A DNA stretch of 64,000 nucleotides from the NCBI GenBank assembly GCA_023382715.1, contig JAHDWP010000003.1:128370-192369 (forward strand), written 5' to 3'. The position numbers and the translations under genes were made by a program. Position 1 is the first letter of the stretch, and the number at the start of each line of letters is the position of its first letter. This document shows, piece by piece, positions 11,414 through 62,381 of the stretch. The notes beneath the pieces were generated by a model. The model was not told the origin of the DNA, made no database searches, and saw nothing but the letters and a program-made list of their open reading frames with translations. The stretch comes from Anaerolineae bacterium (GTDB lineage: Bacteria > Chloroflexota > Anaerolineae > Aggregatilineales > Aggregatilineaceae).

Positions 11414-14400
11414 ATGCCTGAGTTCACTAACCGCCCGCCCCGCATTCAGCCCGAACTCCCCTACGGCGACGTGACCATCCCGCAGCCGCCAGCCAGCGAG
11501 ACTGGCGGTCGCCAGCAGTTGATCCAGGTGGCGCTGCCGCTGATCACCATCATCGGCTACGTGATCGTCAGCGCCAGCGGACAGGGGCGCAGTATGCTGC
11601 TGCTGATCCCGATGGGCATGTCCGTCGTCGCCTCGACCACGGTGGCGCTGATCGCTTTCATGCGCAACAGCCGCCTGGAAGCGGAGAAGAAGCGCGCCTA
11701 CCAGCTTCGCCTGGTCGAGCTGCGCAAAGAGATGATCGCCTCGCACGACATCCAGCGCGGCTTCTATCTGCACAACTACCCGGAGCCGGAGATCGTGCTG
11801 CAAATCGCCGGCGACCGCGAGAACAAGGTCAACGGCCTGCGACTGTGGGAGCGGCGCACGACCGACAGCGACTTCGGCGCGGTGCGGCTGGGCATCGGCA
11901 CGCGGCCCTCCACCGTGCGCTACGCGCTCACCGCGGGGTCGCCCGCCGAAGATGACCCGCAGCTTAAGGACGCGCTCAAGCTGCAGGAGGACTCGCGCTT
12001 CGTCAGCGACGTGCCGATCACCATCCCCCTACGCCGCTACCTCAAGCCGGAAAGTGCGTCAGCGGCGGTCAGCGCGGACGACGAGGAAAGCCAGAGTCCT
12101 GACGATCAATCCGTCACGGCCCGCTTCGCCCTGGGCATCGCCGGCAAGGGAAGGACCGAGACGTATCATTTCATCCGCGCGATGATGGCCCACTACACGG
12201 CCTTCCACGCGCCGACCGACGCGCGGCTGTTCGTCGTCGGCTCGCCGGAGTCGCGCGCCGAGTGGGAGTGGGCGCGCTGGCTGCCGCACTGCAATACAAC
12301 GCGCAACCAGCAGGGCACCGGCGACCAACTGTGTTTCGAGCAGGACAAGGTGCGCCGCTTCTGGGATGATCTGCAGGTGGAGTTGGAGCGCCGCCAGTTG
12401 CGCCTGGCCGACAAGGACAGCGACACCGATCCCACATTGCCCCATCTGCTGGTCGTGATAGACGGCATCGGCGGCTTCGGCGAGAACTCCCCGCTGGCCG
12501 AGGTGCAGGCAGAGGCCGCCGTCTCGATTCTGCTCACCCAGGGGCCGCGCCTGGGGGCTTCGATTGTTTTCGTCGTGCCCGATCGCAGCCTGATCCCCAG
12601 CGACTGCAAGGCGGTGATCGAGGTCGAGCGGGTGAACGACGGCAAAGTAGCCTTCCGCTACGCCGAAGTGGGTGTCAATACGCTGCGCTATGTCGGCGAG
12701 GCGGACCAGCTCGACGCAGCCCGCGCCGAGCAGGAGTTCGCCCGCAAACTGGCTCCGCTGGCCGTGCGCACCACTTATGGCGCAGACCTGGCGACGGCGG
12801 TCAACCTGCTGGAGATGAGCGGCGTCGAGACGGTTGAGGAAATCCCCATCATGGATTACTGGCGGCGCACCCGCCAGCCAGAAGCATCCGAGTGGCTGAG
12901 CGTGCCCATCGGCCTGATGCCCGGCAACAAGGTGCGCTCGCTGCTGTTCTCGGCGGATGGCGACGGCGTGCACGGCATGATCGCCGGCACCACCGGCTCT
13001 GGCAAGTCCGAGCTATTGCTGACGCTGATCGTCGGTCTGGCGATCAAGTACGACCCCAGCGTGATCAACTTCGTGCTGGTGGACTACAAAGGTGGCGCGG
13101 CCTTCGAGCCGTTCCGCACGCTGCCGCACTGCGTGGACATCGTCACCAACCTGCAAGGCACGGCGGGAGTGCGCACCTTCACCGCCCTGCGCTCCGAGCT
13201 GAACCGGCGCAGCAAGCTGATCGCCGATACCAACGTGAAACACATCGTCCATTACCGCCAGAAGGGGCTGCACCTGACCCGCGAGCCGTTCCCCTTCCTG
13301 TTCATCATCGTGGACGAGTTCGCCGAGATGGTCAAGGAGAACCCGGACTTCAAGGCGCAGCTAGACAGCATCACTCGCCTGGGCCGCGCGCTCGGCGTCA
13401 CCCTGATCACGGCCACGCAGCGTCCGGCGGGCGCGGTCACCGACCAGATGCGCGCCAACATGAAGTTCCGCATCTGTCTGCGTGTCGAGACGATGGAAGA
13501 CAGCCGCGAATTGCTGCGCCGCTCCGACGCGGCCTTCCTGCCGCCCAACATCCCTGGGCGCGCCTATCTGCAGGTGGGCAACGAGAACGTCGAGCTGATG
13601 CAGGTCGCGCGGGCGGGCGGCCCCTACACCGGCCCGCAGATTGACGCCGAGCCGCCGGTGATCTGGCTGGAACGGCACAAGGGCACAGCAGCGGGAGCGC
13701 GCCCATCCGGGCCGCTGCAGGAAGCGCCCGCCCTGTCCGACGTGCTGGTGGAAGTGACGCACCGCCTGGCCGAGAGCAACGAGGAAGTGGTCAGGCAGCA
13801 GAAGCCCTGGCCCGACCCGCTGCCCGCGTACCTGGCGCTGCACTCGACCCAGATCAAGGGCGAAGAACAGCCCGACCCGCTGCTGCCGCTCAACCCGGCG
13901 GTGCTGGCCTGGCTGGAAGCGCGCGGCGGCTGGCGGGGCATCAACTGGGCGAGCGAGGCCCTGCGCGCGCCGGTCGGCCTGATTGACAACCCGATCCGCG
14001 CCGAGCGCCTGCGCCTGACGCTCGACCTGACGCGCGGCCATGCGGTGGTCTTCGGCGCGTCCGGCTGGGGCAAAACGACCTTTCTGCGCTCGGTGATCAC
14101 CAGCCTGGCCGCCACCCATTCGCCGGACGAGCTGCACATCTACATCCTCGACTTCGGTGGGCGCGGCCTGGACGTGCTGGAAGCCCTGCCGCACCGCGCC
14201 GCCTCGATCCTGCCCGCTGAGGAAGAGCGCGTGCAGCGCCTGCTGCGCCGCCTGGAGAGCATCCTGGAGGAGCGCAACCGCATCCTCAGCCAGGCGCGCG
14301 CCGACAACCTGAGCACCTACAATGCCAACAACTCCGATAACCGGCTCCCGGCGATCCTGGTGGTCATGGACAACTTCGCCGAGTTCAAAGAGAACTATGA

Positions 14401-32984: not shown

Positions 32985-33432
32985 GCCTTTTTCACGCGGC
33001 TGCCTCTCGTTGGCGATGGGTGCTTGGTAACTGGTGATTGGTTGTTCGCAGGATGCAAGCCGCTGGAGACCACTTGCGAAGCCGTGCGTCCGCCTGTGCC
33101 CCCCATCCCCGGCCCTTCCCCCGCGCGAAGAGAAGGGAGAAGAGCGCTCCCGCCAGGCCCCTCTCTCCCTGCGGGAGAGAGGCCTGGGGTGAGGAGAAAC
33201 AGCTTCTCAAAGAGTCTCTTGCGTTTTTTCGCAACCTCATCCTGGCCCCTCTGTCTCAGAGGTGGACAGTAACGCGCTGGCGACCGATCAGCCGCGCTCC
33301 TCTGGCCCTCTCCCTACCATACGATAGAGCCTGCACAGGGGCGACGTAGGCGAGCACTGCCCACAATCGCCCCTGCACACAACGGATGGCTTCGATGATC
33401 CCGCCCGCACCGGGGCGCGGGCGGGCGGCGTA
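32985..33432. other. 448-base intergenic region with two repeats
   Basis: No gene is supported here. A short-word repeat with TTGGTAACTGGTGATTGG lies at about 33014-33051, and a full family B compound palindrome at 33099-33194. The stretch 33195-33432 shows only GC-rich unique sequence; CTCTATCGTATGGTAGGGAG on the minus strand near 33310-33330 could hold a promoter for the large kinase, but no good -35/-10 pair was found. Confidence 0.5.
33099..33194. repeat. GC-rich compound palindrome (family B), near-complete copy
   Basis: Two joined hairpins. The first is CCCCATCCCCGGCCCTTCCC with GAGAAGGGAG; the second is AGGCCCCTCTCTCCC with GGGAGAGAGGCCTGGGGTGAGG, a nearly perfect stem. This copy shows the two-part structure most clearly and can serve as the reference. 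Confidence 0.8.
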
Positions 33433-43140: not shown

Positions 43141-43164
43141 AAATCTCCCCCAGAGGCCACTTGG

Positions 43165-43262
43165 CCCCCCATCTCTGCGCCCTTCCCCCACAAGGGGGAA
43201 AGAAAAGGCGCTCACTCTTAGCCCCTCCCTCTTTGTGGGGGAGGGGGTGGGGGCGGCACCCC
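43165..43262. repeat. GC-rich compound palindrome (family B)
   Basis: Two hairpin halves: GCCCCCCATCTCTGCGCCCTTCCCCC with GGGGGAAAG, then GCCCCTCCCTC with GGGGGAGGGGGTGGGGGC. It lies directly upstream of the membrane protein starting at GTG 43140 and produces a false N-terminal extension in that reading frame. Confidence 0.75.
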
Positions 43263-44660: not shown

Positions 44661-45737
44661 GTGACCCCCCAGAAAGGCTCCGCGCCAGCCCGCCCACTGC
44701 GCCGGCGCTGGGCGCGCGCAGTGCTCGTCGCCGCGAGCGCAGCCCTCATCGTCAGCGGGGCGCTGGTCGCCGACCGCCTCACCCGCAAATCGGTCACCCT
44801 GGACGTGAGTGGCAGCATCCAACGCCTGCACACGCGCGCCGACACGGTGGGCGAAGCCCTGCGCGACGCTGGCATCTCGCTGGACCCCGAAGACCTGGCG
44901 CATCCCCTGCCCCAGTCGGCGCTGCGCGGCGGCATGACGATCACCGTGCGCAAGGCGCACGCGGTCGCCCTGCAAGTGGACGGGACGCTGCGCCAGGTGC
45001 GGACGCAGGCCGTTCACCCGCTCGACGTGCTGGCGGAGCAGGCAATCTCCCTCGGCCTGTATGACGTGGTGCAGGTCAATGGCCAGCTCTATCCCGCCCA
45101 GCAGTTGAAACAGGTCGAGTGGCAGGCTCCCGCCGCCATCATCCGCGTGGTGCGCAGCGTGACCATGAAGCTGGTCGAGGGCGACGCGACGCAGGTGCTG
45201 CACACGACGCAGGCCGATGTCGGGCGCGCCCTGGACGCCGCCGGGGTGACGCTGTACCTGGCCGACCGCATCACGCCCGACCCCAGCACGCCGGTCGCCG
45301 ACGGGCTGATCGTCGCCATCGAGCGGTCGGTGCCGCTGACGATCATCGCCGATGGGCAAACGCTCAACACGCGTGCGCTCGGCCCCACCGTCGGCGATGC
45401 GCTGGCCCAGATCGGGGTCGCCCCGGCTGACCTGGACAGCACCATTCCCCCGCTGGAAACGCTCCTCACGCCGAACATGACCATCCGCGTCGTGCGCATC
45501 CACGAAGACCTGACGACCCAGGACGAGCCGATTCCCTTCACCACCATCACCCGCCAGGACTCGACGCTGGCTCCGGGCGAGGAGCGCGTGCTCCAGGGCG
45601 GGGCCGACGGGCTGCGCCGCCAGCAGATTCGCAAGCGCAGCGAAGACGGGCGCGTGGTGGGCCGCGAGACGGTGGCCGAGTGGATCGTGCGCACGCCCGT
45701 CCCGCGCATCGTCGCCCAGGGCAGCTCCGCCCCATGA
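44661..45737 (+). CDS. YabE-like protein: three DUF348 repeats and a G5 domain
   Basis: 358 residues from GTG 44661, with AAGAGAG upstream; TTG 44640 is possible, and the frame from 44484 lies in the SRP RNA. A membrane helix (about 18-38) is followed by three DUF348 repeats (about 42-85, 150-195 and 205-255; each with a hydrophobic strand and a V(G/D)xAL(R/D)xAGV-like helix). A C-terminal G5 domain (about 275-345; TTQDEPIPF...GEERVLQGGADGLRRQQ) follows. G5 domains bind wall glycans or zinc. The catalytic 3D/Rpf domain found in Bacillus YabE and actinobacterial Rpf is absent. Overlaps rsmA by 4 bases. Confidence 0.88.
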   Translation: MTPQKGSAPARPLRRRWARAVLVAASAALIVSGALVADRLTRKSVTLDVSGSIQRLHTRADTVGEALRDAGISLDPEDLAHPLPQSALRGGMTITVRKAHAVALQVDGTLRQVRTQAVHPLDVLAEQAISLGLYDVVQVNGQLYPAQQLKQVEWQAPAAIIRVVRSVTMKLVEGDATQVLHTTQADVGRALDAAGVTLYLADRITPDPSTPVADGLIVAIERSVPLTIIADGQTLNTRALGPTVGDALAQIGVAPADLDSTIPPLETLLTPNMTIRVVRIHEDLTTQDEPIPFTTITRQDSTLAPGEERVLQGGADGLRRQQIRKRSEDGRVVGRETVAEWIVRTPVPRIVAQGSSAP

Positions 45738-46599: not shown

Positions 46600-46695
46600 C
46601 CCCATCCCCGGCCCTTCCCTCACGAGGGGGAAGGGAGCAGAACGCAGACCCCAGGCTCCTCCTGCCTGGTAAGGGAGAGGTTTGGGGTGAGGGGG
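46600..46695. repeat. GC-rich compound palindrome (family B), complete copy
   Basis: CCCCATCCCCGGCCCTTCCC pairs with GGGGGAAGGGAG; a second part CAGGCTCC...GGTAAGGGAGAGGTTTGGGGTGAGGGG follows. It lies between the convergent rsmA and alkyltransferase-like genes, where it could act as a two-way terminator. The arrangement matches the 33.1-kb copy. Confidence 0.8.
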
Positions 46696-46734
46696 CACAG
46701 CAAACAATTACCGGCGGACTCCCGCCGACGTGCG

Positions 46735-48387: not shown

Positions 48388-50796
48388 TCAGGCTGTCCGG
48401 CTCCGCCGGACGCGCCCGCCGAGCAGCAGCAGCAGCGCCACGATCAGCGCTCCCCCTGAGATTGCCGCGCCCCACGCGAAGTGAGTAATCCGGTAACGAA
48501 ACACTATCTCGGAGTCGCCGGCGGGCACGGCAACCGCCTGAAAGGCCAGGTTCGCGCGCAGGAGGGGCGCGGGCGCGCCGTTGACCGTCGCCGACCAGCC
48601 GGGATACCACGTTTCGGCCAGAACCAGGTAGGCGGGCGCGTCCGTCGCGGCGCGGAAGCGGCGCTCGGCGGGATGCTCCTGAAGGAGGCTGATCGAGCCA
48701 GGGGAGGATGCCTCATCCCCCCCGCTCCCCTCTTCAGCCGGGTTAGGGAGGGGAGAAATGCCCGCCAGGATGACCGTCTGCGCCGGGTCCCAGGCCGGGT
48801 CGCCCAGCGCCGCGCTGATCGCCTCGTCCGCCTCGTGCCACTCCGCCGCCCCCACCAACCAGGCCGTCGCCCCGCTGCTGCCAGCGGGCGCCGCCGCCGG
48901 AGCCGCCCCCGTCCAACTGTCCGGCGTGACGCCGAAGGCGCGCGTCACGCCCGCCGCGCGCAGCAGCGCCCCGGCCCGCGCGCCCAGCTCCTCGATCAGC
49001 GCCACATAGCGGCGGTGAACCGCTGGCAGCAGCGGGTCGTTGTTGTCCAGCGAGGGGAGGCGATCCAGCAGGTTCAGGTTGGGCAGCAGCGAGGCGCGCA
49101 ATTCCTCGCGCCGCCGCTTGGCGATGCGATAATCGCCCACGTCGAAGAAGCCTTCGATCGGCGGCGTTTCGTCCTCGTCCGTCCCAAAGGTCACGTCGTA
49201 CTGATACGCATCGAACCAGTAAAGGCGGCCCGGCGGCCCGACGACTTCGCGCCGCTCGAAGAACGACGATGGGACGGTCGGGTTCAGCCCGGCGGCAAAC
49301 CAGGCCAGGTCGAGCGTCACGACGAGCAGGACGGCAGCCCGCCACAGCGTCGCGCGCGCCGAATGCGCCGAGCCGAGCGGCTGGACGAGCGTCAGCAGGG
49401 CGGCGGCAGCGATCCATCCGCCGAAGGCGGCCACGGCCAGGGCCATGGTGCCCAGTTCGGGGGGCGTGAGATTGACGAAGATGCGCGCGCCGAGGGCCAG
49501 CAGCGCCATGCCGCCGCCACCCGCCGCCGTCAGCCGCGACCAGTAAACAATGCGCGGCCCGCGCCCCCAGTGCCCCACCCCGATCCCGGCCAGCAGCGCC
49601 AGCCCCACGTGCGTCAGGATCAGCCAGCGCACCGGCTCGCGGAAGGCGTCGAAGGTGGGCACGTAGTCATAGAGCAGCCGAAAGGCCGGGTTATGCTTGC
49701 CGGCGGCCAGGAACAGCCCGACCAGGGCCAGCGCCGCCCAGAAGGGCACGGACGCCTCACCCCCTAAATCCCCCTCCCTGGCTCTGCCGGGAAAGGGGCC
49801 GGGGGGAGGGGCCTGGCGTCTGAACAGCCAGGCGGCCAGCGCCGCGCCCGCCGCGATCAGCGGGATGACGCCCAGGTAGGCCGCGTCCTCGAAGAAGATG
49901 CCCTCGGTGAAGACGCTGCCATCGGCGGGCGTGCCAAAGAAGTGCGGCATCCACAGCGCCAGCAGGCGTGCCGGGTGATACGACAGGTTGGTCAGCGCCG
50001 CGTAGCCCAGCCCGCCAGCGCGATCCGACTGGCGCAGATATTCGGCGGTGGGCAGCAGTTGCACGGCGGCTATTCCCGCGCCGAGGGCGACGCCCAGCCC
50101 GGTCAGAGCCAGCCCGCGCGCTCGCAGCCGCCAGGAGTCTCTGCGATCTGCCCACAGCGCGCGCCACAGGGCATACGCGCCCGCGCCGAGCAGCCCGTAC
50201 CACGCGGTTTGGGCGTGCCCGGCCAGCAGCAGCAGCCCGGCGGCCAGGGCCAGCCCGCCCACGTCGCGCCACGCCCGCCGCGTCAGGGTGCGGTGGGCCA
50301 GCCAGAACAGCCAGGGCAGCCAGGCAGCGGCAGCGTGCGTGGGGAACGAGCCAAGCCGGGCGATCAGGTAGCCGCCCAGGGCGTAGCTCAGCGCGCTGAC
50401 CCCGCGCCCGAACGGGGTCACGTCCAGCGCCCTGGCCAGGTGCCACATACCCAGCGCCGCCCAGAGGACGTGCGCCAGCGCCAACAGCGACATGGCCAGC
50501 GGGCCGGGCAGGACGAGCATCAGCCAGTTGGGCGGGTAGAAGATCGCCGTCTGGTAATTGGCCAGCAGCGGCGCGCCCGCGCCCAGGTAGGGATTCCACG
50601 CGGGCAGCCGCCCGGCGCGCAGCTCGGCGAAGGCGAACTCGCGCCAGGGATAGAATTGCAGCGTCGGCAGGCCCCAGAACAGCGTCTCCCCACCCAACAG
50701 GGCGCGCAGCAGCGGCAGCAGCGCCGCGCCAGCGAGGGCGAAGGGCAGCCAGCGCAGGATGCTGGCCTGGGCACGGAAGGGGCGCGGCTCACTCAT
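48388..50796 (-). CDS. YfhO-like multi-pass membrane protein (module B')
   Basis: 802 residues from ATG 50796, which overlaps the upstream stop by 8 bases; the frame upstream to 51069 is inside the previous gene. About 12 membrane helices. YfhO-type features: FYPWREFAFAELRAGRLPAWNPYLGAG near the start, IFYPPNWL, AAAWLPWLFWLAHR, a large outer C-terminal domain with TRAFGVTPDS and ETWYPGWSATVNG, and a last helix. YfhO in firmicutes modifies lipoteichoic acid with sugars. Two family B palindromes lie in frame within it (49755-49812 and 48711-48756), adding low-complexity loops. Clearly paralogous to 52491-54638. Confidence 0.72.
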   Translation of the reverse strand: MSEPRPFRAQASILRWLPFALAGAALLPLLRALLGGETLFWGLPTLQFYPWREFAFAELRAGRLPAWNPYLGAGAPLLANYQTAIFYPPNWLMLVLPGPLAMSLLALAHVLWAALGMWHLARALDVTPFGRGVSALSYALGGYLIARLGSFPTHAAAAWLPWLFWLAHRTLTRRAWRDVGGLALAAGLLLLAGHAQTAWYGLLGAGAYALWRALWADRRDSWRLRARGLALTGLGVALGAGIAAVQLLPTAEYLRQSDRAGGLGYAALTNLSYHPARLLALWMPHFFGTPADGSVFTEGIFFEDAAYLGVIPLIAAGAALAAWLFRRQAPPPGPFPGRAREGDLGGEASVPFWAALALVGLFLAAGKHNPAFRLLYDYVPTFDAFREPVRWLILTHVGLALLAGIGVGHWGRGPRIVYWSRLTAAGGGGMALLALGARIFVNLTPPELGTMALAVAAFGGWIAAAALLTLVQPLGSAHSARATLWRAAVLLVVTLDLAWFAAGLNPTVPSSFFERREVVGPPGRLYWFDAYQYDVTFGTDEDETPPIEGFFDVGDYRIAKRRREELRASLLPNLNLLDRLPSLDNNDPLLPAVHRRYVALIEELGARAGALLRAAGVTRAFGVTPDSWTGAAPAAAPAGSSGATAWLVGAAEWHEADEAISAALGDPAWDPAQTVILAGISPLPNPAEEGSGGDEASSPGSISLLQEHPAERRFRAATDAPAYLVLAETWYPGWSATVNGAPAPLLRANLAFQAVAVPAGDSEIVFRYRITHFAWGAAISGGALIVALLLLLGGRVRRSRTA
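48706..48760. repeat. Family B palindrome inside a coding region
   Basis: CCTCATCCCCCCCGCTCCCCTC pairs with GGGAGGGGAG around CAGCCGGG. In frame it encodes a Pro/Glu/Gly-rich stretch beginning SPLPNPAEEGSGGDEASS in the outer domain of the YfhO-like protein. Confidence 0.65.
49755..49812. repeat. Family B palindrome inside a coding region
   Basis: CCTCACCCCCTAAATCCCCCTCCC pairs with GGGAAAGGGGCCGGGGGGAGGGG. In frame it encodes PPPGPFPGRAREGDLGGEAS in a loop between two membrane helices, a stretch without counterpart in the paralogue at that place. Confidence 0.7.
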
Positions 50797-52507
50797 GCGG
50801 CACCTCGTAGATGCGGACGGGCGCGGTTTGTTCCGGCGGCAGTGCCAGCGGCAGAGCGTCTGCCCAGGCGGGGAGCGCGTCGCCCGCCCCCGCCATCTCC
50901 AACTGTCCCACAAAGACGTAGTCCACCACGGCCAGCAGATCGCGCTGTGCTGCCACGTCGAGCGCCCCGGCGAAGAACTGCTGGGCGATGGCTTCCTTCC
51001 GCTCGGCGTCCACCGTCTCCGGCCCATGCCCGACATAGGCCTTGAGATCGGTCCAGGCGGGCAGGACATTGCCCGTCTCCTTCAGGCTGAGCACCACCGC
51101 ATCGCGCGGGGCAACTCGGTTGAGGGCATCCATCGCGCGCAATTCGGCGTCCGGCTGGAAGAGCGGGCGCTCCGGCGTCAGGACGGTGAAGGTCGCCCCC
51201 AGCCAGAGCAAGACCGCCGCCGGCAGAGTCAACGCCAGCAGCGCGGCCCGCGCTCGCCGGTAGGCCCGTTTCCGAGGGAAGGCCAGGCGCAGCCCGGCGG
51301 CGGCCAGGATGCCCAGCGGGACGATGGCCCCTTCCAGCAGGCGGCGCTGCACGTTGACCGGCAGATAGGCCAGCACCGGCGCAGCGATCACCCAGGCCGT
51401 CAGCAGCAGGTGTGGCAGGCCCCCGCGCCGCCACGCCCAGCGCCAGCCGAGCGCCGCCGGGATGGCCAGCGCCACATAGCCGAGGACATAATGCAGCGGG
51501 TGCGGCGACGGCAGCCGGTTCTGCGCCGACCAGGTGCCCAGCACGTCGCTGCCCAGGAAGGCCGCTGCGCTGCTGGCCAGCGGCGGCAGCGTGACCAGGG
51601 CTGCGACCGTCGCCGGCCAGAACAGCGCCCAGGGGAAGCGCCGCGTTCGCCCCCAGGCGGCCAATCCCCACGCGCCGAGCACGGCGTAGATCACCGCCAG
51701 GTAGAACGGCACGCACAGCCCCACCACGACCCAGCACAGCCCGGCGCCGAGCGCCCAGCGAGGCCCGGCGGCCCCCCCCATCCCCCAACCCCTTCCCTCA
51801 CGCAAGCGGGGGGAGTGTTCCTGGAGGCTTTCTCCCTTCCCTCCTTGTGGGGGAAGGGTCGGGGATGGGGGAGCGCTCGCTCGCAGCAACAGCAGCAACC
51901 CGCCCAGCAGCGCCGCCCGCGCCAGGGCCAGATGCGGCAGCCCGAACAGAATCAGGAAGCTGTACCCTTCTGGCACGTAGAAATCCACCGGCAGCGAGCC
52001 GAGCCAGTCGCCGCGCCCGGCCAGCGCCAGGGGCCAGCCCAGCCCGCCGCCCAACGCGATCAGCACCAGGGCCAGCATCCGCGTGGCCGGGCCGCGCAGG
52101 AAAACGGCGATGAAGCGGTACGTCACCAGGATCAGGGCGAAGCCACAGGCGATTCGCGCCGCGTGGAAAGCGATAATCAGCGCGGCGGGCAGGCTCGCGC
52201 TGTGCGGACTGACGAACAGGGCGGCCAGCTTGCCCAACAGGAGATAGTGCAGGAGCAGCAGCGCGCCGCCGTGCGGCTCGTGGGTGTAGCGCAGGGTGAA
52301 CAGCCAGTCGCCGCGCGCGCCGAGGCGCATCTTGGCCAGGTAGCTGTAGCCGTCGTCCGCGCCGAAGACGAATCCGCCGAACGTCCAGCCAGCGCCCGCT
52401 GCCAGCGCCCCGATGATATAAGGGATCGCCGTGACCAGCATCACAGCGACGGCGAAGAGAGCGACGCGCCGCCATTCCGCCCGCGAGATCTCATCTCCGC
52501 CAGGCAT
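50789..52507 (-). CDS. Multi-pass membrane protein, GT-C-like (module A')
   Basis: 572 residues from ATG 52507, overlapping the upstream stop by 17 bases. About ten membrane helices. The first outer loop has DDGYSYLAKMRLGARGDWLFTLRYTHEPHGG, with acids in the position typical of GT-C enzymes; NVQRRLLEGAIVPLG lies later, and the C-terminal part (VVLSLKETGNVLPAW, AFFxGALD-like) is soluble. Closely matches 54610-56277 along its length, so the two are paralogues. A full family B repeat (51772-51872) is inserted in frame and gives about 34 extra residues between two helices. Function unknown; glycosylation or glycolipid handling is a guess. Confidence 0.65.
   Translation of the reverse strand: MPGGDEISRAEWRRVALFAVAVMLVTAIPYIIGALAAGAGWTFGGFVFGADDGYSYLAKMRLGARGDWLFTLRYTHEPHGGALLLLHYLLLGKLAALFVSPHSASLPAALIIAFHAARIACGFALILVTYRFIAVFLRGPATRMLALVLIALGGGLGWPLALAGRGDWLGSLPVDFYVPEGYSFLILFGLPHLALARAALLGGLLLLLRASAPPSPTLPPQGGKGESLQEHSPRLREGRGWGMGGAAGPRWALGAGLCWVVVGLCVPFYLAVIYAVLGAWGLAAWGRTRRFPWALFWPATVAALVTLPPLASSAAAFLGSDVLGTWSAQNRLPSPHPLHYVLGYVALAIPAALGWRWAWRRGGLPHLLLTAWVIAAPVLAYLPVNVQRRLLEGAIVPLGILAAAGLRLAFPRKRAYRRARAALLALTLPAAVLLWLGATFTVLTPERPLFQPDAELRAMDALNRVAPRDAVVLSLKETGNVLPAWTDLKAYVGHGPETVDAERKEAIAQQFFAGALDVAAQRDLLAVVDYVFVGQLEMAGAGDALPAWADALPLALPPEQTAPVRIYEVPHE
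51772..51872. repeat. Complete family B compound palindrome inside a coding region
   Basis: CCCCCCATCCCCCAACCCCTTCCC with GGGGGGAG, then CTTTCTCCCTTCCCTCCTTG with GGGGGAAGGGTCGGGGATGGGGG. About 101 bases read in frame as APPSPTLPPQGGKGESLQ and a further 17 residues ending WGMGGA. The paralogue at 54.6-56.3 kb has only a short loop here. Confidence 0.78.
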
Positions 52508-54638
52508 GGCGCTCTCCCCCCCACAAAACCAGTCCGCCCAGCGCGACCAGCGCCGCGCCGATGCCCAGCGCCAGCCACACTTCGGACGGATCGTAGACGA
52601 ACGACCAGGTGTCGGTCGCTCCGTCGAGCGGGCCGGGCAGCCCCGGCGTGTCGCCTGGTGCGGCGCGCCAGCGCCCATTGGCGACCGCGTAGAGCGGCCC
52701 GGCGCTGGGCGCGCCCAGCGTCACCGTGACGCGGTTTGGCCCGTCCCAGGTCAGGCGAGCATCCGGCGCGTAGGCGTTGCGGTAAACGTAAACCTCGCCG
52801 ATGCGCGCCTCCAGCGCCAACCCCTCGGCCTCCAGCGAGCAGGCAGCGACGACGTGCGTGACCAGCCACGCGCCCAGCAGGTCGGGGCGCAGGGGCGCGT
52901 CGCAGTTGGACGTTGCCAGCGTTTCCGCTTCGGTCTGCTCCTCATCCTCGGTGACGAACGCCGGGATGGTGACGCTGTAACCTTCGGCGTGGACGCCGGT
53001 CGCCGCTTGCGCCGCTTCCACGTAGGTCTGCGTCTGGAAGGGATCCACGCCGTCGAACTGGGCGATCCCCCAATAGGCCGCCGCCTGCTGTGGCAGGCTG
53101 TAGGTGGGCGAATAGACGCGCACAGCGCCGGCTTCCTGCAGATGCTCGGCCAGCGGGCGATAGGGGTCGAGCCATGTACGCTCCGAACGTCCCTCGACCA
53201 GCGACCCGCCGATCCACAGCAGATCGGCCAGCACGACCAGGGCGAAGGCCGCCAGCAGCGCGCGCGACGGCAGGGAGCGCGCGAGCGCCAGCAGCATGAT
53301 CAGCGCCGTCAGCGGCAGCGCAAACGTTCCCAGCGCCACTTCCCAGCCCAGGTCGGCGCTGAGGGCCAGCGCGCTGAACAGCCCGCAAGTCAGCCCCCCG
53401 CCCAGCGCGCCGGCGACGATCAGCCGGGCGGCGCGGCGATCCGGCGGCTGGCTGATCAGCAGTTGCGCCCCCCACGCCGCCAGGTACGGCAGGATCAGCG
53501 CGGCCAGGAACCAGGCGCGCGGCGGCACGCGCCACCAGCGCAGCGCCGGAATCAACGACGTGAGCGCGGGCCACAGGACGAAGTTCTCGCCCATCGCCCA
53601 GGCGGCGATGACCAGCAGCGCCGCGCCCCAGAAGGCCAGCGCGCGCGGGCGCAGCAGCAGCGCGGCCAGGGCCAGCGCCAGCACACTGACGCCCGGATAG
53701 ACCAGCGTCTCTCCCAGCCCGCCATGATTGCCCAATACCAGTCCGAACCAGCCAATTCCCTCCAGGCTGAACAGGGCGGCATCGCTCGCGGTGATCTCGG
53801 CCCGCGACAGGTCGGCGCGCCACAGCAGCAGCGGCACCCACTGGACGGCGCTCAGCCCGGCGGCCAGCAGCCCCGCCGCCAGCAGGCGCAGCGCCGCCCG
53901 CGCCCTATCCGGGTGTGGGCTTCTCCCTTCCCCCCTCGTGGGGGAAGGGCCAGGGATGGGGGGGCACCAGCGCCACAGTGCATACGCGGCGGTCAGGGCG
54001 AAGGCGTAAGCGCTCAGGCGCACGTCGGCCAGCAGGCACAGCGCGGCGAATGACGCCAGCCACACGGCTGCCCGCCGGCCAGAGCGACCAGCCAATACCC
54101 GTTCGACAGCCCACAGCAGCCAGGGGATCCACGCCGCGGCGTAGACCAGGTCCACGTGCCCGTTGCCGACCGCCGCGATCAGGCGCGGGGCGAGGGCGTA
54201 GCCGGCCCCGGCCAGCGCCGCCGGCCCTCTCGCCAGGCCGGTCGCGCGGCCCCACACCCATGCGCCCAGCCCGGCCAGCGTCAGGTGCAGCCAGAGCAGG
54301 ACATTCAGGTGCAGGGCCGGCGGCAGGAGGAGGGCCAACCACTGCGGCGGATACCAGACCTTGCTCAGCGGGTTGGCGGCGAAGGGCGTCCCGCTGAAGA
54401 TGCCGGGCTGCCACAGGGGGAGCGTGCCCTCCTCCAGGACGGCGCGGCGCAGCAGCAGCGCGTTCGGCCAGTGGGTGGTCACGGCGTCGGAGAAGGCCGC
54501 TTCCAGCGAGAAGGGCAGCCTGTCCGCGCGCAGCCCCGCCCCCAACAAAAACGCCGCCAGAAGGGCGGCCAGGGCGGCGGTGAAGGCGAGGGCCGTGCGC
54601 GCCCCGGCCTCAGTGAAGGATGTAGACAGTGACCTCAC
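52491..54638 (-). CDS. YfhO-like multi-pass membrane protein (module B)
   Basis: 715 residues from GTG 54638, overlapping the upstream stop by 29 bases. About 12 membrane helices. The N-terminal motifs run parallel to the paralogue at 48388-50796: TLPLWQPGIFSGTPF, VWYPPQWLALLL, GYALAPRLIAAVGNGHVD, AAAWIPWLLW. A C-terminal outer domain contains VYSPTYSLPQQ and GVDPFQTQTYVEAAQ, then a last helix with basic end. A family B palindrome piece (53918-53965) is read in frame as PPIPGPSPTRGEGRSPHP. Likely transfers sugars to a surface polymer, by analogy with YfhO only. Confidence 0.7.
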   Translation of the reverse strand: MRSLSTSFTEAGARTALAFTAALAALLAAFLLGAGLRADRLPFSLEAAFSDAVTTHWPNALLLRRAVLEEGTLPLWQPGIFSGTPFAANPLSKVWYPPQWLALLLPPALHLNVLLWLHLTLAGLGAWVWGRATGLARGPAALAGAGYALAPRLIAAVGNGHVDLVYAAAWIPWLLWAVERVLAGRSGRRAAVWLASFAALCLLADVRLSAYAFALTAAYALWRWCPPIPGPSPTRGEGRSPHPDRARAALRLLAAGLLAAGLSAVQWVPLLLWRADLSRAEITASDAALFSLEGIGWFGLVLGNHGGLGETLVYPGVSVLALALAALLLRPRALAFWGAALLVIAAWAMGENFVLWPALTSLIPALRWWRVPPRAWFLAALILPYLAAWGAQLLISQPPDRRAARLIVAGALGGGLTCGLFSALALSADLGWEVALGTFALPLTALIMLLALARSLPSRALLAAFALVVLADLLWIGGSLVEGRSERTWLDPYRPLAEHLQEAGAVRVYSPTYSLPQQAAAYWGIAQFDGVDPFQTQTYVEAAQAATGVHAEGYSVTIPAFVTEDEEQTEAETLATSNCDAPLRPDLLGAWLVTHVVAACSLEAEGLALEARIGEVYVYRNAYAPDARLTWDGPNRVTVTLGAPSAGPLYAVANGRWRAAPGDTPGLPGPLDGATDTWSFVYDPSEVWLALGIGAALVALGGLVLWGGERHAWRR
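53918..53965. repeat. Family B half-element inside a coding region
   Basis: GCTTCTCCCTTCCCCCCTCGTG pairs with GGGGAAGGGCCAGGGATGGGGG. It encodes PPIPGPSPTRGEGR in a cytoplasmic or outer loop. Nearly identical DNA is found between genes at 62.3 kb. Confidence 0.75.
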
Positions 54639-56277
54639 CCTCGCTCAGTTCCTTTTCGATGCGCTCCGGCGGCAGCGCGGCGATGCACCTGCCGGCGTCG
54701 GGATAGACCTGGCCGTCGTCGTCTTCGGCGGCGAAGGCGCGCTCCTGCGGCCCCCACAGCACGTAGCGCACGCGGAAAGGCAGGTTGTCGCCCAGCAGGG
54801 TTGCGCAGTCCTGCCCCCGGTAGAACTGCTCGACCTGCTCCTCCCGCTCGTCGTTGGGCACCGTCTCGTAGGGATGACCGTAGACGACCACCTGGCGGGT
54901 GTAGGCGGGAATCCACAGGCTGATATTGGGTGAGGCCAGCACAACCACGTCCCTGTCCCCCTCATTGCGCAGCCACTCAAAGGTGCGCCAGTAGTCCATC
55001 TCAACCAGCAGCCCCCGATCCAGCCCGCTGTCCGGATCGAAGACAGTGCCATACAGCGGAATGGCCAGCACCAGGATGTTGCTCGGCATCAGCAGGACAA
55101 TCAGGGCGATGAGGGCCGGCGTGCGCCAGCGATCGGGCACCTTGTAGAACCAGGTGTCTTCCAGGGCGCGCACGGCGAAGTAGACCAGGGGGATGATCAG
55201 GCCCATCGCCAGGCGGCGCTGCAAGTTGAACGGCGCGTACAGCCCGACGATGTTGACGATCAGCCACAACAGCATGAGCTGGTCCCCGTCGCGCTCGAAG
55301 CGGCGCAGGGCGCGCACCAGGCCGGGGATGGCCACGATCACCAGCAGGCCAAAGCCGGACAGCATCAGCCAGGGCGCGGGCGACGGCGTCTGGTTCTGCG
55401 CATTGAAGGCCCCCATGATCTCGTTGAAGTGGAACACGGCGAAGTCATACACCGCGAAGGGGATCATCGGCAGCCACAGCATCGCCGCCCAGCGCAGCTC
55501 GTGCTTGGGCCACGCCTGCGTGAACCAGAAGCGCACGCCCACATACAGCACCAGCGCGCCGGCGATGGGGATCAGCACAGTGGGCTGGATCAGCGCCAGC
55601 AGCGTGGAGAGCAGCAGCACCCCCAGCCCGCCGTTCTCGGCGCTCGGCGCGTCCTGGTAGCCTCGCCGGAAGACCACCAGGTAGGCGCTGACGATCAGCG
55701 CCAGGCTGGCGATGCTCATCGGGAAGTGCGGGTTGGTGTACGAAGCGTAGAGCGGGAACGCTTCGGGAATGATCAGGTCGGCGGCCAGCGCGTCAGGATT
55801 GAAGAACAGCACCAGCCAGCCCAGCCCCGACCCCACCGCCGCGAGCACAAAAAACAGCCGGCGTGGGCGCTGGCGCACCCAGATCGTCGCCCCTAGCTGG
55901 TAGAGCGAGATGTACATGAAGAAGCTGGTCACCATGCGCGCCAGGTGGTACGTCACCAGGCTGGACAGCCCCAGCACGCGCGCCGCGTGCCCCAGGAACA
56001 GGTAGAACGTGTGAAAGGCCGCCCCGTCGTGCTTCTCCGGCGTGTGGCGCAGTTGGAAAAGCCACGACCCGGCCCGGCCCTGTTCCATCTTGGAGAGGTA
56101 GGTCGCGCCGTCCAGCGGGTTGGAGAGCATCCCCATGAACTGCCAGTCCCCCGCCGACTGGTTGCGGGCCAGCGCCCAGGCGTAGGGAGCCATCGTCAGG
56201 GCGACGAGCAGCCCGCTGATCACGATCACCCAGCGCCACTCGGCGGCTGACACATATACGGAGCGGAGCGTCTGCAT
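54610..56277 (-). CDS. Multi-pass membrane protein, GT-C-like (module A)
   Basis: 555 residues from ATG 56277; TTG 56283 is an alternative. About ten membrane helices. LDGATYLSKMEQGRAGSWLFQLRHTPEKHDG in the first outer loop, GLGWLVLFFNPDA, DLIIPEAFPLYASYTNPHFPMS, NLQRRLAMGLIIPLVYF and a soluble C-terminus with VVLASPNISLWIPAYTRQVVVYGHPYET. It matches 50789-52507 segment by segment but has no inserted palindrome. First gene of the four-gene A-B-A'-B' operon. Function not known. Confidence 0.65.
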   Translation of the reverse strand: MQTLRSVYVSAAEWRWVIVISGLLVALTMAPYAWALARNQSAGDWQFMGMLSNPLDGATYLSKMEQGRAGSWLFQLRHTPEKHDGAAFHTFYLFLGHAARVLGLSSLVTYHLARMVTSFFMYISLYQLGATIWVRQRPRRLFFVLAAVGSGLGWLVLFFNPDALAADLIIPEAFPLYASYTNPHFPMSIASLALIVSAYLVVFRRGYQDAPSAENGGLGVLLLSTLLALIQPTVLIPIAGALVLYVGVRFWFTQAWPKHELRWAAMLWLPMIPFAVYDFAVFHFNEIMGAFNAQNQTPSPAPWLMLSGFGLLVIVAIPGLVRALRRFERDGDQLMLLWLIVNIVGLYAPFNLQRRLAMGLIIPLVYFAVRALEDTWFYKVPDRWRTPALIALIVLLMPSNILVLAIPLYGTVFDPDSGLDRGLLVEMDYWRTFEWLRNEGDRDVVVLASPNISLWIPAYTRQVVVYGHPYETVPNDEREEQVEQFYRGQDCATLLGDNLPFRVRYVLWGPQERAFAAEDDDGQVYPDAGRCIAALPPERIEKELSEGEVTVYILH

Positions 56278-62294: not shown

Positions 62295-62361
62295 TCCCCT
62301 CACCCCAAGGGCGCGCTTTTTTCCCTTCTCCCCTCGTGGGGGAAGGGCTGGGGATGGGGGC
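62295..62361. repeat. GC-rich palindrome (family B)
   Basis: CCCCTCACCCCAAGGGCGCG is followed by a stem of CTTCTCCCCTCGTG with GGGGGAAGGGCTGGGGATGGGGG. It lies between convergent genes and is nearly identical to the in-gene copy at 53.9 kb. Confidence 0.75.
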
Positions 62362-62381
62362 AACGGCAGCAGAAGCGGGCG

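Follow-up and report, generated by a model that had tools for sequence, protein, structure and literature searches.

Three adjacent membrane-protein genes in the analysed stretch of DNA (64,000 nucleotides, hereafter the window) contain dispersed palindromic repeats, which are read in frame as Pro/Gly/Arg-rich loops in open reading frames. These loops are very probably in-frame insertions of dispersed MITE-like palindromes, tolerated in unconstrained loops between membrane helices at sites that have been reused. The observed basis of this reading is the insertion seen against orthologues, the maintained frame, the depletion of the repeats from genes, their restriction in the sample to GT-C-like or PMT-like proteins, the turnover between species and the purifying selection that acts on two of the genes. 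The window lies on contig C3 of a draft genome of 3.88 Mb (G000), whose closest named-record relatives are uncultured Anaerolineae (Chloroflexota), e.g. UBA2029, 'Thermoflexus sp.' BE2012_66_11 and Gw_SlDig_bin_20. Five species of the genus have been sequenced, all as draft genomes: G000 (this genome), G001, G002, G003 and G004.

Palindromic repeats read as inter-helix loops

The three genes lie on the minus strand, are open and well-scoring, and encode polytopic membrane proteins. Gene 1 (48388-50796) codes for a YfhO-like GT-C-fold protein of 802 amino acids (Pfam YfhO, E=2e-13) with one confirmed in-frame insert, and its AlphaFold model (mean pLDDT 77) gave Foldseek matches to AftD, PglB and ArnT. 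The 572-residue product of gene 2 (50789-52507) carries an insert of ~34 residues and is a GT-C glycosyltransferase-like protein by AlphaFold (mean pLDDT 80) and Foldseek, with the oligosaccharyltransferases STT3/AglB/PglB and ArnT as top matches. Gene 3 (52491-54638), identified from its ORF, coding score and orthologue alignment, encodes a GT-C/YfhO-like protein of 715 amino acids with a ~17-residue insert, and matches the YfhO profile weakly (E=0.46). Genes 1 and 3, two of the three, are maintained proteins under ongoing purifying selection, as their dN/dS of 0.18-0.31 shows. Elsewhere in the window (44720-45737), a protein that combines a G5 domain with three DUF348 domains resembles cell-wall proteins of the resuscitation-promoting-factor type.

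Three of the four palindrome copies proposed in the initial annotation (49755-49812, 51772-51872 and 53918-53965) are family members by repeat depth. The copy in gene 1 is a family A palindrome (49755-49815, minus strand) read as QAPPPGPFPGRAREGDLGGEAS between the helices at residues 310-328 and 346-364; its repeat depth in the genome sample reaches 7, family A being rarer than family B, and its fold has a z of -2.2. Gene 2 contains a family B double palindrome of ~100 bp (51772-51873, minus strand), which is read as APPSPTLPPQGGKGESLQEHSPRLREGRGWGMGG between the helices at 191-210 and 247-265, has a maximum repeat depth of 94 in the genome sample and folds with -68 kcal/mol (z -3.9). In gene 3 a single family B palindrome (53918-53970, minus strand) is read as PPIPGPSPTRGEGR; its repeat depth in the genome sample is 82 and it folds no better than shuffles (z -0.6). 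These in-gene copies match many intergenic copies over 40-58 bp at 86-93% identity. The proposed location between membrane helices is seen in both modelled inserts, where pLDDT falls below 50 (residues 332-343 in gene 1 and 217-244 in gene 2). The fourth proposed copy (48706-48760, minus strand), a stretch rich in G and C that falls in the soluble domain of gene 1, within a hydrophilic and variable linker, was rejected as a member of any repeat family, with a repeat depth of 0 in the sample and a fold z of +0.27; the linker has equal length in the sister species G002, without a family repeat.

Family B is the commonest of the families and is MITE-like. Complete copies measure ~155 bp, and in them two GC-rich palindromes lie between the terminal inverted repeat of 17 bp, AGAGGCCGTTTGAGAAG, and its matching end. 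The core palindrome was found at 83 sites genome-wide (up to two mismatches; reversed control 0) and the terminal repeat at 77 sites genome-wide (control 0). The terminal inverted repeats of family C are of the form GGGTGCGTGCAAAACCTGTC. Intergenic family B copies within the window comprise a near-complete element of ~155 bp with two internal palindromes and the terminal repeat at its right end (33060-33219), two further copies (43161-43256 and 46600-46701) and a partial copy (62310-62369). In the class, the family B half-palindrome is patchy, occurring in 18 of 199 genomes and nearly always at low copy. One contig of another genome (G041, C177, 954-1110) holds four of these half-palindromes in a regular 45-bp tandem array. 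On contig C7 of G000 (L224 9487-10812), a 441-aa protein has long aspartate runs (DDDDD) encoded by a repetitive stretch, and the adjoining gene at 11657-12607 ends in similar aspartate runs.

Depletion of the elements from genes

The search and tabulation of in-gene copies was run on 51% of the genome (1.98 Mb, assembled from stretches). Genes were called with our own periodic Markov model with repeats masked, giving 1481 genes and 83% coding DNA; repeats were marked by self-comparison and protein families were assigned by keyword. About 350 palindromic segments of families A-E were found in this census, and only four of them (~1%) lie inside genes, whereas 83% of the DNA is coding. Families D and E, of the CTCTGCGTCTCTGCG and TACGCCCCTACGGGG types, are two more dispersed palindromic families of the G000 sample and are essentially all intergenic. 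The four in-gene copies, those of gene 2, gene 3, C2:109381 and C11:27489, are without exception in frame, and each belongs to a membrane protein that has the GT-C fold or is PMT-like. The copy of the rarer family in the YfhO-like gene 1 is a fifth, and the single same-strand case in a different frame falls between two separate genes. Thus the palindromic families are depleted from genes, and their in-gene copies, very rare as they are, are restricted in this sample to GT-C-like or PMT-like proteins. Other apparent in-gene calls were excluded as WD40, ABC-transporter or Thr-Pro repeats, and two more (C2:65884, before a HicB-like protein, and C9:37919, before a signal peptide) were excluded because the gene probably starts downstream of them.

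The C2 and C11 proteins both match PMT_2. The C11:27489 copy is a nearly complete element of 149 bp, including the left terminal repeat, and adds ~48 residues which are missing in every homologue; it folds with -83 kcal/mol (z -3.85). The C2:109381 insert is common to G000 and G001 and missing in G004, and its fold (z -0.45) is no better than shuffles. An additional in-gene copy in G001 is also within a PMT_2 protein (L200). Positive charges suggest a cytosolic location of the inserted loop for the gene 1 and C11 proteins only. In a PMT-like protein of G022, from another family of the same order, a loop of the SPTRGE type (LSPALSPTRGERELE...LAPCGRGGQGVRG) was seen at the corresponding position, encoded by a different palindrome (L264).

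The restriction to GT-C-type proteins was noticed after the fact and concerns one gene of G001 and five of this genome, of which three are neighbours. A rough count (36 PMT_2 matches, with YfhO and others added) puts the GT-C-like share of coding DNA at about 3%; the share of proteins predicted to have at least six helices is 18%. The post hoc chance of finding four out of four in-gene copies in such proteins is ~1e-6 for GT-C and ~1e-3 for polytopic proteins; with the adjacent window genes counted as one, the post hoc chance for GT-C is ~3e-5.

In four genes family B is translated as PPIPGPSPTRGEGR, PPSPTLPPQGGKGES, LFSLPPSWEKGWGWG and LSPPTPNPSPARREG...LPSPLVGEGPGMGG, and it has no conserved peptide because it is read in several frames and in both orientations across genes. 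Of 6 frames, 3.0 are open in family B and 2.7 in shuffled sequence, and family C has fewer open frames than its shuffled counterpart; the idea of an element which evolved to be open in all frames was therefore rejected.

Filled, empty and replaced sites in sister species

Comparison with orthologues indicates that the loops are insertions and not ancestral features. The paralogous GT-C-like neighbour at 54610-56277 (minus strand, a coding ORF with no repeat segment within) lacks the ~34-residue insert of gene 2, as previously pointed out, and aligns to gene 2 residues 13-230 and 263-566 at 33-35% identity. Orthologues are more informative than this paralogue, and in those from other genera within the family or order a short linker joins the flanking helices where the loop is missing. 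Clean gaps of this kind were found in many orthologues per gene outside the genus, and repeat-free orthologues bearing the same loops were not seen there, so the best reading is still that palindromes have invaded coding DNA in frame. The gene 3 site is insert-free in most other genera, and one orthologue (G010) carries there its own loop, rich in Ala, Pro and Arg.

Within the genus, the same loops are filled, empty or occupied by different repeats. The family A site of gene 1 holds A in G000, nothing in G003 and G004, and an unrelated insert in G002. The corresponding site in G001 contains an in-frame repeat array (L138 1950-2720) of ~200 extra residues, about 230 residues longer than the segment in G000 and still open, which mixes at least three repeat types and includes a tandemly amplified family A unit. 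The gene 2 site is occupied by family B in G000, by B with a nested C in G004, by C in G002 and by no insert in G003; the contigs of G001 break there. The gene 3 site is filled by family B in two species, G000 and G004, and by family C in the other three, G001, G002 and G003. The copy numbers of the families agree with the family which fills the loops in each species. There are 70 family B core sites in G000 (matches listed per strand as found, with no second strand added), 97 in G001 and 89 in G004, and none in G002 and G003, while family C is abundant in all five species (29-195 sites). The gene trees have the form ((G000,G001),G004),(G002,G003), in which the G000/G001 pair is supported at 74-77%, and set against the distribution of the families this topology requires at least two insertion or replacement events in gene 3. 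Sequencing error is an unlikely cause of the loops, because independent assemblies of sister species hold different in-frame palindromes at the same positions.

Route of insertion, alternatives and relation to known elements

According to the explanation that we propose, at least three families (A, B and C) of dispersed palindromes would insert largely regardless of genes, presumably moved by a trans-acting transposase. Almost every copy that lands in coding DNA would be purged as it breaks the frame or the fold, and the survivors would be those with a length multiple of three and no stop in the frame used, located in inter-helix loops of GT-C-fold glycosyltransferases and YfhO-like proteins. 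The Pro/Gly/Arg-rich extra sequence may stay disordered and be tolerated there with a near-neutral effect. An occupied site would stay permissive, such that other families replace the insert, nest in it or amplify in tandem, and this may be why sister species have different inserts at one loop. As a wider and tentative idea, GT-C-fold membrane glycosyltransferases might be a preferential sink for in-frame palindromes across Anaerolineae. One repeat family after another would then re-invade their inter-helix loops, which would change through the serial capture of mobile palindromes, through nesting and through tandem amplification, and not by ordinary indels.

Active transposition stays a proposal because no target duplication, autonomous partner or RAYT was found. 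Target-site duplications were not recognised by eye at intact copies, nor at the C11 in-gene copy, and intergenic empty sites near the window are too diverged for such duplications to show. In the search for an autonomous parent of family B, the one inverted pair of terminal repeats ~2 kb apart was found to enclose an S1-domain-like gene and no transposase; the best candidate pair for an autonomous IS with family B ends, at C40, encloses a cellular gene. No RAYT was found in the genome, where the search gave an IS605-type TnpA beside TnpB and a weak match inside a 1256-aa frame. RAYT-driven REPs were rejected as well, as just one clear Y1 transposase (129 aa) was found and it is paired with TnpB in the IS605 manner. 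This single IS605-type element lies on contig C3 at ~51.8-53.4 kb (L143 800-2368), with a TnpA of 129 aa and a TnpB of 391 aa, beside a tyrosyl-tRNA synthetase-like gene. Since most in-gene copies are without terminal repeats, they could be internal fragments brought in by recombination.

Two functional interpretations are less likely than tolerated insertion, because neither the fold scores nor the loop sequences are conserved. The first places the function in the RNA: a hairpin between helices would slow the ribosomes, or would shield or process the polycistronic transcript, and the peptide would be a by-product. The strong hairpins of gene 2 and C11 and the position of the inserts between helices agree with this, but the gene 3 and C2 copies fold like shuffled sequence, other genera and some of the sister species have no such inserts, and nothing is conserved once the repeat family changes. 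A general mRNA hairpin function was rejected on account of the inconsistent z-scores, and we consider an RNA-level role improbable. An adaptive role of the protein, in which the palindromes are co-opted as raw material for a regulatory or interaction loop, would be in keeping with the gene 3 loop being filled in all five species of the genus; however, the sequences at the loops are unrelated across species, the same repeat is read in different frames, the structure is of low confidence and G003 is without an insert in two of the three genes, which makes this role quite improbable. That the loops are ordinary low-complexity GC-rich linkers, repeat-like by chance, fits the stretch at 48706-48760 and is refuted for the other three of the four copies by their close matches to many intergenic copies, the control count of 0 and insertion boundaries that are exact against orthologues, and as a general account it is hardly credible.

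REP and BIME sequences are GC-rich palindromic units, single or paired in mosaic elements, and are overwhelmingly intergenic. The present families share the GC-rich palindromic units and the intergenic preference; they differ in that no RAYT was found here and that family B is larger, with outer inverted repeats. The MITEs with intragenic copies (ERIC/RU-1, Correia/NEMIS and Coxiella QMITE1) are short, have terminal inverted repeats and no transposase of their own, and are occasionally fused in frame with genes (PMC2229807, PMC10969869). Family B resembles them as a short element (~155 bp) with terminal inverted repeats and many copies, whereas here no target-site duplication or parent IS was found and the in-gene copies are mostly internal palindromes without the terminal repeats. 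The palindromic elements of Rickettsia and Wolbachia, of ~100-150 bp, are dispersed between genes and also occur in frame in ORFs, where they are translated as extra segments (PMC10969869, PMC2229807); nearly half of the 44 RPE copies in R. conorii are in ORFs of unrelated genes (PMC10969869). By these described features, the present elements are like RPE in being both intergenic and in frame inside ORFs. In contrast to RPE, only ~1% of the copies are in genes, all of them encoding GT-C-type or PMT-like membrane proteins; RPE carry a conserved peptide ORF, whereas one and the same repeat is translated here in various frames and orientations; and a given loop is occupied by different families in different sister species. 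The restriction to one fold class, the reuse of sites by different families and the lack of a conserved reading frame set these elements apart from RPE.

In-frame insertion of palindromes into protein genes is best known from the intracellular Rickettsia and Wolbachia. The initial annotation knew of no such description in this phylum, and none was found for Chloroflexota in the open-licence literature. Here the host is a Chloroflexota lineage whose genome measures ~4 Mb, and close sister species provide filled, empty and replaced sites at the same loops. For annotation, loops of the PSPTRGEGR type in membrane proteins should be regarded as repeat DNA and not as conserved domains. The contribution of selfish DNA to protein sequence is thereby made directly testable, as to which insertions are tolerated, why one fold class receives them and whether a first insertion eases later ones.
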